Assembly: GCA_021830925.1 (NCBI GenBank)
Contig: JAKBNS010000207.1
Span: forward strand, 1-32,022
Source: Pseudomonadota bacterium
GTDB lineage: Bacteria > Pseudomonadota > Gammaproteobacteria > Burkholderiales > Burkholderiaceae_C
Length of the DNA: 32,022 nt
Reading direction: 5' to 3'
Every line of letters begins with the position of its first letter. The stretch's first letter is position 1. The notes below the pieces were generated by a model. The model was given only the letters and a program-made list of their open reading frames with translations, ran no database searches and was not told the origin of the DNA. This document shows, one piece after another, positions 1 through 21,591 of this stretch. The translations under genes were made by a program, and so were the position numbers.

Positions 1-28
1 CCCCCTCCGGTACTTCAACAGCCTGCTA
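1..28. repeat. Terminal repeat of a second two-armed element, cut by the window edge
   Basis: These bases match the right-hand terminal inverted repeat of the complete element at 19901-20173, with one clear difference near the outer end (CCTGCTA here, CCTGTTA there). The element body would lie upstream of the window. The repeat ends 1 base before the ATG of the DUF721 gene, so the element forms that gene's immediate 5' flank. Confidence 0.8.
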
Positions 29-19511: not shown

Positions 19512-19534
19512 GCCAAAGTCTTCGGGGAATATGG

Positions 19535-19870
19535 GGCAAAGCAGGCCTATAGGCCGGATTCTGTGCATCGGTTACCCGATGTGGCAGTCATTCCTCTGGG
19601 CCGCCCGTTACCGGATCGGCTCGGTGCCACCTACCCGCAGGCTCGCGCGGGCCGCGCTCCCGGCGCCTTGCGGCGCCCTCGCCTGCCTATTTGGTGTTGC
19701 TCCGGGTGGAGGTTGCCGCGTTTCACGTCCGCGCGGCTCGCGCCGCGCATACTCGTCTCTGTGGCCCTGTTCGTCGCGTCGCCGCGCACGGCCGTTAGCC
19801 GTCACCCTGCCCTGTGGAGTCCGGACCTTCCTCGCCGCTCGCGCGGCGCGACTGCCCAGCCTGCTTCGCC
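19535..19870 (-). ncRNA. rnpB: RNase P RNA, bacterial type A
   Basis: The catalytic RNA that removes 5' leaders from tRNA precursors. The first and last strands pair as helix P1 (GAAGCAGGC with GCCTGCTTT, plus-strand 19859-19867 and 19538-19546). Universally conserved blocks are present: GAGGAAGGTCCGGACTCCAC and AGGGCAGGGTG near the 5' end, CCACAGAGACGAG, GTGAAACGCGGCAACCTCCA, CACCAAATAGG in the middle, and ACAGAATCCGGCCTATAG near the 3' end. Length of about 335 bases suits the type A form of Betaproteobacteria. The end points are inferred from P1 and may be off by a few bases. A terminator follows, and the two-armed element begins about 30 bases upstream. Confidence 0.97.
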
Positions 19871-19877
19871 GCCGCGG

Positions 19878-19906
19878 ATTATGCCTGTTGTCCCGCTGCC
19901 TAACAG
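19878..19906 (-). promoter_or_regulatory. Probable rnpB promoter, -35 lies in the mobile element
   Basis: Minus-strand CATAAT (19878-19883) is a 5-of-6 match to the -10, about 8 bases from the RNase P 5' end. At 17 bp spacing the -35 position is CTGTTA (19901-19906), a 3-of-6 match formed by the outermost six bases of the element's terminal repeat. Confidence 0.6.
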
Positions 19907-20173
19907 GCTGTTGAAGTACCGGAGGGGGCCGCGCGCAGGCGCTGCGGGATGAGCTGCAAGGCGCCCAAGCCAAGGCCAGGCTGGACGCCTGGCCTGCTTG
20001 GGCAACGCCGCAGATCGCCCGCAGCGCCTGCGCCCGAAGGGTTGGCGCAGAATCGGGCGCTGGCCGCACCCCGGATCTTGCGCGGGCGCCCAGCCCGCGC
20101 TGCGATCCGGCGCACGCCCATCATCCCGATTCTGCGCCAACGCGACCCCCTCCGGTATTTCAACAGCCTGTTA
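19901..20173. mobile_element. 273-bp non-coding two-armed inverted-repeat element (MITE-like)
   Basis: Terminal inverted repeats of 28 bp (19901-19928 and 20146-20173, 27 of 28 matching) enclose two self-complementary arms. Arm 1 (19933-20033) is closed by a perfect 16-bp stem and nests GCCCAAGC/GCTTGGGC and GGCCAGG/CCTGGCC. Arm 2 (20041-20141) is closed by a perfect 17-bp stem and nests CCGGATC/GATCCGG and GCGCGGGC/GCCCGCGC. Both arms are exactly 101 bp, with 4, 7 and 4 unpaired bases at the junction. There is no gene inside. The ends start and finish with TA, which might be a target-site duplication. A terminal repeat of another copy is at 1-28. Which transposase would act on it is unknown. 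Confidence 0.8.
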
Positions 20174-20530
20174 GTCGTCGATGGCCGCCAGAACCGCGAT
20201 GCGCAGTTCCTGCGGGTCGCGCGAGCGCAGACCGCGACGCATGCCGGAGATCCGGTGCCCCTTGCGCGTGCCCTGGGATTCCACGTAGATCACGTCGCCA
20301 TCGCGCAGCGAGGGCTCGACCGTGACCAACGTGGCCTTGCCGTTGGCGGACAGCTTGACCCGGGCCCGCAGGGGCTGGCGCTCCGATGGGTTCCTGAAGG
20401 CCGCCAGATGGGGGTGCGGCTCGTCGCCGCGCTCGCCGAAATCGGCGGCAAGACCGTCGTGCGCCCACGCGGTAGCCTCCGCGTTGTCCCGCGCTCTGCC
20501 GTCCTTCGCATCCTGCGTCTCGCTTTCCAT
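20171..20530 (-). CDS. Small paralogue A of unknown function
   Basis: A 119-residue acidic-to-basic protein with no family I recognise. The first 50 residues are polar and probably unstructured. From about 54 on (LRARVKLSANGKATLVTVEP) it looks beta-rich. The block LRDGDVIYVES, HRISGMRRGLRSRD and ELRI closely matches the protein at 21631-22002, so the two are paralogues. No signal peptide or membrane segment is seen, so it is probably cytoplasmic. The start at 20530 has GGGGG about 7 bases upstream and lies after a shared bipartite motif. Its TAA stop is made of the last three bases of the neighbouring element. It may have been shortened or extended by that insertion. Confidence 0.75.
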   Translation of the reverse strand: MESETQDAKDGRARDNAEATAWAHDGLAADFGERGDEPHPHLAAFRNPSERQPLRARVKLSANGKATLVTVEPSLRDGDVIYVESQGTRKGHRISGMRRGLRSRDPQELRIAVLAAIDD

Positions 20531-20570
20531 CTTGATGCCCCCGGACCCTGTGGCAAGGGCCCATGGCGAC

Positions 20571-20657
20571 GATCCTAGGTAGGCGGGTCGCGGTATGCGC
20601 CCAACTATTTCACGGCAAAGAGGCTGGGAAATGGTGCAACCTGCAAATATTTCACGG
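20571..20657 (-). promoter_or_regulatory. Bipartite promoter-like motif with a doubled upstream box
   Basis: On the minus strand CCTAGGATC (20571-20579) lies 22 bases downstream of CCGTGAAATAGTTG (20602-20615). A second box, CCGTGAAATATTTG (20644-20657), lies exactly 42 bp further upstream, four helical turns. The same pair of motifs with the same 22-base gap precedes the paralogue at 21631-22002. It may be an alternative-sigma promoter or an activator site plus a -10. The hydrolase on the other strand starts 86 bases away and could share it. Confidence 0.65.
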
Positions 20658-20742
20658 ATACACGGGGTTTCGCCAAGATGCGGCGGCAGGACCTGCGCCG
20701 TGCCATGCCCTAAGCTTCGCCTTCGACCCTTCCGAAGCCGCC

Positions 20743-21591
20743 ATGCCCATTCCCGCCGAGCTCCAGACACGCGAACAATTCACGGCCGCCTACGACAACC
20801 TCGCGATCATCGCCGACGCCGCCGAGGTGGCGGCGCAACTGCGCGAGCGCAGCCGGGCCTTCCACGCGGCGCACGCCTGCGTGACCGATATCCCCTACGG
20901 AGCTGGGCCGCGCCAGGTCTACGACTGGTATCCCGCGCAGGGGGACGGCACGGCCGCCCCGGTGCTGGTGTTCATTCATGGGGGCTACTGGCAGGCGCGA
21001 GACAAGCGCGACTTCAGTTGCGTGGCGTCGGGGCCGCTGGCCGCGGGCTTTCATGTGGTGATGGCCGAGTACACCCTGGCACCTGGGGCGAAGGTGCCGG
21101 ACATGGTGGGCGAGATCGGCATGCTGCTCGATGCCTTGCGGGTCCACCCGGTGCTGGGCGCTCGCGCGGGGAGCTTCCCGCGCATCGTGCTGAGCGGGCA
21201 CTCGGCGGGAGGGCACCTGGCGGCGATGCATCGGGCCCATGCCGCCGTGGCCGGCGTGCTGGCGATCAGCGGGCTGTTCGACCTGGAGCCGATCCGGCGT
21301 GGGGCGCTCAACGACGCACTGGGCCTGCGCGAGCACGACGTGGCGGTCTGCAGCCCGCAGGCTCGTATCGGTCGCGGAGTGCCGACCGTGGTTGCGGTGG
21401 GGGGCGCGGAGTTGTCCGAATTGCAGCGCCAGAGCCGGGAATACCAGGCCGGCCTGCGCGACGCGGGCGAGTCCTCGCGGCTGCAGGAAATCCCGGGTGC
21501 GAACCACCTGAGCATCCTGGCGGAGCTCGAGGGGCGCGAAGGCGTCTTGCTGGCGGCGGCGCTGGCGCTGATCGAGCAGACCCGGCGCTGA
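20743..21591 (+). CDS. Alpha/beta hydrolase, arylformamidase-like
   Basis: A 282-residue cytoplasmic alpha/beta hydrolase. It shows the oxyanion motif HGGYWQ (about residue 82), the nucleophile elbow GHSAGGH (about 151-157) and a late acid/His segment ending PGANHLSIL. HGGYW is typical of kynurenine formamidase-type esterases, which cleave N-formylkynurenine, but no other kynurenine-pathway gene is here and the true substrate is unknown. The ATG at 20743 (MPIPAELQTREQF) is preferred. The frame is open to 20563, but that extension runs through the regulatory motifs and has no recognisable sequence. It is flanked on both sides by the two small paralogues, reading divergently from one and towards the other. 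Confidence 0.85.
   Translation: MPIPAELQTREQFTAAYDNLAIIADAAEVAAQLRERSRAFHAAHACVTDIPYGAGPRQVYDWYPAQGDGTAAPVLVFIHGGYWQARDKRDFSCVASGPLAAGFHVVMAEYTLAPGAKVPDMVGEIGMLLDALRVHPVLGARAGSFPRIVLSGHSAGGHLAAMHRAHAAVAGVLAISGLFDLEPIRRGALNDALGLREHDVAVCSPQARIGRGVPTVVAVGGAELSELQRQSREYQAGLRDAGESSRLQEIPGANHLSILAELEGREGVLLAAALALIEQTRR

Follow-up and report, generated by a model that had tools for sequence, protein, structure and literature searches.

A MITE-like element with a conserved two-arm core beside rnpB in a Thiomonas-like bacterium

In the window analysed here (a contig stretch of 32,022 nucleotides from a Thiomonas-like bacterium), a core element of 267 bp at 19904-20170, flanked by CTAA and TTAG, adjoins the RNase P RNA gene (rnpB). 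The element is short, non-coding and multicopy and carries terminal inverted repeats; as to the ends that MITEs have in common with an autonomous transposon, they are of the IS5-family kind and exact in two of the 13 Thiomonas insertion sequence (IS) loci inspected. That the element is MITE-like is well supported, and it is likely that its arm core is maintained by selection. The explanation that we favour, and hold to be rather probable, is that of a superfamily of IS5-type MITEs in which a folded-DNA core is retained as a module acting in cis. A description of such an element was not found in the open-access literature searched by title and abstract start.

Structure and genomic context of the window element

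An earlier note on this DNA, made from the sequence, had described an inverted-repeat element with two nested-stem arms next to rnpB, and such an element is indeed present. Its terminal inverted repeats (19900-19933 and 20141-20174; 34 nt, 94% complementary) are slightly longer than noted, and the position beside rnpB proved right, the element starting 32-36 bp upstream of the rnpB 5′ end. Two arms are found as well, but the claim that both measure exactly 101 bp hinges on the limits chosen for the left arm, as its outer repeat pair runs from 19930 to 20036 (19930-19948 with 20018-20036, 19 nt, 95%); the outer repeat of the right arm joins 20041-20057 with 20125-20141 (17 nt, 100%). The midpoint of the 267-bp element, 20037, falls on the middle base of the central motif CCCGAAGGG (Table 1). 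Folding covered one strand for each type of molecule: as DNA, the plus strand reaches -133.4 kcal/mol, where shuffles average -70.4 (z -15.2), and as RNA, the minus strand reaches -236.6 against -140.3 (z -17.4), with none of 200 shuffles as good in either case. The end stem and the two nested-stem arms are present in both folds, whereas the central motif forms a tiny hairpin in the RNA fold only and is unpaired in the DNA optimum. Open frames overlap the element, and 267 bp are too short for any transposase frame.

Table 1. Features of the element and related sequence in the window
Feature	Position	Strand	Basis
Left flanking tetranucleotide CTAA, YTAR-type target	19900..19903	.	Sequence; many other copies also have YTAR-like flanks
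Left terminal inverted repeat; its outer 17 bp, CAGGCTGTTGAAGTACC, match IS5-family ends	19904..19933	+	Repeat search; IS ends
Arm 1	19938..20028	-	Model R1 match on minus strand, 107 bits; arm 1 is among the R1-building sequences
Central motif CCCGAAGGG, possible mini-hairpin, element centre	20033..20041	+	Sequence; such a motif no more than 3 nt from the centre in 48 of 64 elements of the two-arm class
Arm 2	20047..20135	+	Model R1 match, strand opposite to arm 1, E 2.2e-4; arm 2 is absent from the R1-building set
Right terminal inverted repeat	20141..20170	-	Repeat search
Right flanking tetranucleotide TTAG, holding the stop codon (TAA, minus strand) of ORF 20171-20770	20171..20174	.	Sequence; ORF list
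Further end of this element type, at the contig start; any remainder lost with the assembly break	1..28	-	

The rnpB gene occupies 19534-19867 on the minus strand and is the sole Rfam match at gathering score in the window. Between gene and element (19868-19903), the element start falls where the rnpB -35 region would be expected, and CATAAT on the minus strand of this interval may be a candidate -10, although the promoter scan found none; a scan of 19840-20240 detected neither an intrinsic terminator nor a sigma-70-like promoter. On the other side, the minus-strand ORF ends with its stop codon inside the flanking tetranucleotide. Since YTAR-type targets contain TAA or TAG, such insertions can sit at gene ends.

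Elsewhere in the genus, 25 rnpB loci from other genomes were examined, and an element end stands beside the gene in only one (genome G019), where a stub of about 28 bp lies at the same CTAA. The right-hand gene of the window is located on a different contig of that genome, beside decayed element ends. The simplest reading is that the window copy arose by recombination between two copies in one lineage, which would explain why CTAA and TTAG at its flanks do not form a direct repeat; the copy sits at a likely rearrangement breakpoint.

Copies, relatives and covariation of the arms

A copy search in the whole genome and in related genomes, as the earlier note had proposed, identified at least 40 matches to the element query in the genome of origin (40 scored of 263 candidates, with partial and self-inverted matches included) and matches at E<=1e-3 in 22 of 27 other genomes of the genus, so the element is not single-copy, whereas a single copy is what the note had named as speaking against its reading. 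Several of the pieces in the genome of origin end at contig breaks, as repeats do in short-read assemblies; copies of the element break assemblies. The note had also allowed that other copies might lack the arms: 14 other long Thiomonas copies, with 92-99% identity to the window copy, keep both, but one-ended or partial copies are common. A pattern scan of named genomes yielded 49 stretches, from Thiomonas sp. FB-6, MAGs and one Acidocella contig. Four copies consist of bare inverted ends with spans of 48-51 bp. Armless inverted ends of two unrelated end types stand at L097 (4770-4820), L139 (1311-1358), L141 (478-525) and G104:C5:30670-30719, the one in G104 being known by its span alone.

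Two loci may be mentioned separately. A contig end of the alphaproteobacterium Acidocella sp. KAb 2-4 carries a Thiomonas-type end with the start of an arm (L132, 3843-3921), a possible sign of exchange among bacteria living in acidic habitats. In L056 (G000:C206:6500-10800), two inverted end pieces flank two genes that by eye resemble GlxA/DJ-1-type regulators (648-2418); the right-hand end gives one open frame its last residues and stop, and another frame crosses the left-hand end.

The wider distribution was examined with models of the arm. Model R1, built from 18 arm 1 sequences in a MAFFT alignment made without structure (A1), matches 76 of 300 sampled genomes of the order (E<=1e-3), and it also matches, on the opposite strand and down to weak scores, arm 2 of more than ten other elements. 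A broader model of 47 arms, some of them second arms (R2), matches 60 of 369 sampled genomes from the class and, in a phylum sample of 398, 28 genomes (both at E<=1e-5), 14 of these 28 lying outside the class; the two samples share a few genomes. As only some 7-14 candidates in each genome were scored in the wide scans, counts of genomes and copies are lower bounds. The model E-values are rough. Two-armed relatives occur in Gammaproteobacteria and other Pseudomonadota, and complete ones are present on plasmids of Azotobacter chroococcum and Pseudomonas aeruginosa. A phage origin was rejected, since a phage collection gave no match at E<=0.01. Two genomes have several listed arm matches of equal score (13 in G236, the genome of L192, and eight in G553, that of L252), which suggests recent amplification of two-armed elements there.

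Inverted ends were detected in 80 of the 84 loci examined, of which seven score weakly (10-13); none were found in L181, L182, L266 and L248, the last of which was examined at the wrong position, its arms being at 79-272. The two-arm class is defined simply as the 64 elements of 240-300 bp, some with doubtful limits. Fifty-two of these fall within 263-276 bp (median 269), and 48 have CCCGNAGGG or CCCTNCGGG no more than 3 nt from the centre. Adjacent arm pairs are head-to-head in all 58 cases (from 85 sources, four pairs being close Thiomonas copies), with a spacer of 13-20 nt in 56. The ends, in turn, form 31 clusters at 70% identity, or about 29 without two faulty ones (an empty string from L179, cut by the contig, and a shifted end from L055, which resembles L177), and a CTGTTNA-like core is common to several clusters. 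Total length, arm orientation and central motif are thus kept across relatives. A one-arm class comprises 11 elements of 145-200 bp, six of them at 160-163 bp. An unrelated end, GGGCTCGTTAATGAAT, present in six of ten genomes searched, delimits exact-end spans, most known by span alone, of 265-267 bp (ten), 160, 167, 50 (two), 193 and 365 bp. Taken together, the main sizes suggest a series of approximately 50 + 108n. When up to eight ORFs per locus were compared all against all for 78 elements, no protein occurred in more than four loci, and the one recurring in four consists of reading frames that run through the element itself.

The earlier note had argued that balanced arms imply a maintained structure and had recommended a search for compensatory changes, and the results bear out the argument, with compensatory change between many kinds of ends and a largely fixed geometry. 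In A1, 15 of 28 pairs show double changes. In an alignment of 145 arms, pairing holds in 89.2% of cells and covariation scores 0.700, compared to 0.161 in shuffles and at most 0.127 when the structure is slid; further pair types, one of five measures, gave a weaker result that 14 of 500 shuffles reached. Fitting to the model, as for A2, A3 and the alignment of the 145 arms, favours its structure, while A1 was not so fitted, and related sequences inflate the cell counts. Pairing falls to 66-69% of cells in the inner helices 5 and 6. Two bulges, TTG and TT, are conserved beside a GGCG helix, and their four T positions are kept in roughly 83-98% of the sequences with a base there.

The note had left the choice between a DNA and an RNA structure undecided, and this can be narrowed. 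Of 1688 cells in the outer two helices, 1602 hold Watson-Crick pairs, 23 GU and 20 AC, whereas variable pairs of rnpB, used as a control (26 sequences), show 144 GU and 12 AC in 790 cells; the GU excess is 12-fold in this RNA and almost nil in the arms. The control is from one genus and shallower, and its RNAalifold structure admits GU but not AC, as does that of the arms, which was made likewise. Over all 28 arm pairs, mismatches comprise 86 GU, 63 AC and 366 others in 3986 cells. Since GU is as rare as AC in the outer helices, unlike in rnpB, the symmetry points to DNA rather than to an RNA read from one strand.

Ends, insertion sequences and target sites

Whether the element matches the end of a known IS, which the note had listed as a possible objection, has a divided answer: the outer ends match those of IS5-family IS, but R2 found no arm (E<=1) in 21 IS-bearing or end-matching loci. 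The outer end CAGGCTGTTGAARTACC also occurs at the ends of an IS5-family IS on Pandoraea plasmids, which has CAGGCTGTTGAAATACC ends, CTAG flanks and a transposase scoring 278.5 bits to the NCBIfam IS5 model NF033581 (cut-off 140). In a stretch of C. metallidurans without annotation, related ends (CAGGCTGCTGAAATACC at the left) lie between TTAG direct repeats. Matches to the Pandoraea transposase (E<=1e-20) are present in eight of 28 genomes of the genus; at the same threshold, none was detected in the genome of the window, which is about 90% complete. Regarding the 13 Thiomonas IS loci inspected, two, both fragments in genome G015, read TTAG|CAGGCTGTTGAAGTACC at their ends, and the other 11 differ from the element by at least one base, ten with CAGGCCGTTGAA-type ends and one (L211) more altered.

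Evidence on other end types comes from an Azotobacter two-armed element with a second end type, CTAGGGTCTGTTGACGTTTTG. An identical 22-bp copy of this end is found elsewhere in that strain; some 1.4 kb further in, after an IS4 CDS, lies an IS5-family CDS, and we read this locus as an interrupted IS, the far end of which was not found in the stretch examined. Plasmid searches led to IS5 loci with the Azotobacter end type and, with four others, gave no match for two and short matches for two. That other end types, too, would belong to IS5-family IS is supported for only one further type, that of Azotobacter.

IS5-family elements insert at YTAR-type targets. The flanks of Thiomonas copies are often CTAG on both sides or TTAA on both sides, which, being palindromes, cannot alone prove target duplication; in L185, a two-armed element with CAGGCTGTTGAA ends that comes from a different family within the order, the flanks are TTAG direct repeats, which are non-palindromic. 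By a crude test, direct repeats of at least 4 bp border 20 of the 64 elements of the two-arm class, many of them the palindromic CTAG. As for empty sites in relatives, which the note had suggested looking for, the orthologous site of one copy in genome G005 is without element in G016, but 14 unaligned bases lie between the flanks and the site is not base-precise; sister plasmids of P. aeruginosa and Azotobacter provided no clean empty site. An attC-like reading of CCTAAC...GTTAG at the ends was dropped, as other copies show CTAG or TTAA there.

Possible role of the core and comparison with known systems

The element would be non-autonomous, with ends that are presumably recognised in trans by an IS5-family transposase inserting at YTAR-type targets. 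Between the ends, two head-to-head hairpins around the central motif would constitute a conserved core that probably works as folded DNA, either as a cruciform or as a hairpin on whichever strand is single-stranded; as one arm is an inverted copy of the other, either strand would offer the same kind of folded shape. The core may act in cis in the propagation of the element, for example by holding the ends at a set spacing or by presenting a bulged hairpin to a transposase or a host protein. A cis-acting part in propagation is the most likely role of the arms and, at the same time, the least certain step of the proposal, which we put forward with more doubt than confidence. On a broader view, which is somewhat more speculative again, one ancient folded-DNA module of about 268 bp (two inverted bulged hairpins with a central GNA-type motif) could have been joined to some 30 unlike IS-type end sets across Pseudomonadota and kept as a junction-like DNA structure read by a transposase or a widespread host factor, its strand symmetry letting it work on either single strand. 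If the core acts in cis, many mobile elements may have in common a portable structure that aids transposition, or else a site for a host factor, and the natural forms with no, one or two arms offer a ready-made test series.

Two other explanations of the arms deserve consideration. The arms might be an RNA element transcribed from neighbouring genes, such as a terminator, an mRNA stabiliser or an RNase III target, the insertions being harmless or useful. Correia and ERIC elements among the MITEs provide precedents (available text of PMC10969869), and the very stable RNA fold, the UNCG-like loop that the central motif has on one strand and the closeness of many elements to an ORF (about 20 bp or less, with ORFs called crudely) agree with such a role. 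The scarcity of GU in the outer helices, in contrast to rnpB, and the lack of an intrinsic terminator in the region scanned argue against it, although GU would also be suppressed if both strands were used equally as RNA, and on balance we consider it unlikely. An RNA gene or riboswitch was rejected on the same GU/AC control and because of the Rfam result, the six matches to 19880-20200 at E<=10 all being below gathering score. Palindromes can also be kept self-complementary by template-switch (quasipalindrome) correction, and the arms could accordingly be palindromes of an ancestral MITE that persist without function. The almost exclusively Watson-Crick changes of the outer helices fit this explanation, as the correction could yield both double changes and low GU, and the frequency of partial copies and armless forms indicates that arms are lost easily. 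However, correction should erase the TTG and TT bulges, the T positions of which are retained, and length, orientation and central motif are kept between some 29 end clusters; this explanation appears to us a little less likely even than an RNA role.

With regard to known systems, RAYT (HUH tyrosine transposase) enzymes read paired inverted hairpins with extrahelical bases, and an element of the REP/REPIN type, moved by a RAYT that reads its hairpins as single-stranded DNA, would account for the paired inverted hairpins and conserved bulges. Against this stand the long terminal inverted repeats, which the element shares with DDE-type IS, and the lack of a recurrent neighbour gene around the 78 elements, making such an origin quite improbable. 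REP dimers likewise consist of paired inverted palindromes, but according to the part of PMC3733652 available they are built of GTAG- or CGTC-tagged units of 20-40 bp without such long terminal inverted repeats; the ends of GTAG REPs often supply a stop codon (same source). The TIME elements, Tn3-derived Pseudomonas MITEs of fixed length, resemble the present family in that a length near 262 bp is held despite sequence change and that a less conserved core folds (available text of PMC4133298). Two 262-bp TIME-like elements lie on plasmid QKH54 (L298; 12288-12549 and 41496-41757), and the predicted fold of one comprises an end stem and two unequal branches separated by a small hairpin, a likeness of outline that is confined to one copy and superficial. 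TIMEs, however, have Tn3 ends and repeats of 5-6 bp, whereas the ends of the window element are IS5-type, and R2 has no match in the first 50 kb of QKH54, which hold both elements; membership in that family was rejected as extremely improbable, while a remote link between the TIME core and the two-arm core is possible. Correia and ERIC elements are, like ours, MITEs with a strong fold beside genes, and are set apart by description only, as the portion of PMC10969869 describing them includes no two-arm plan. The closest relation is with IS5-family MITEs, which are equally short, non-coding and multicopy, with IS5-family outer ends, YTAR-type flanks and many partial copies. MITEs are usually described by their ends, similarity to the IS being confined to the ends in type II (PMC10969869, in the text available). 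Here, by contrast, the ends are variable, and it is the two-arm interior that keeps its structure, and some of its sequence, across about 29 end clusters.
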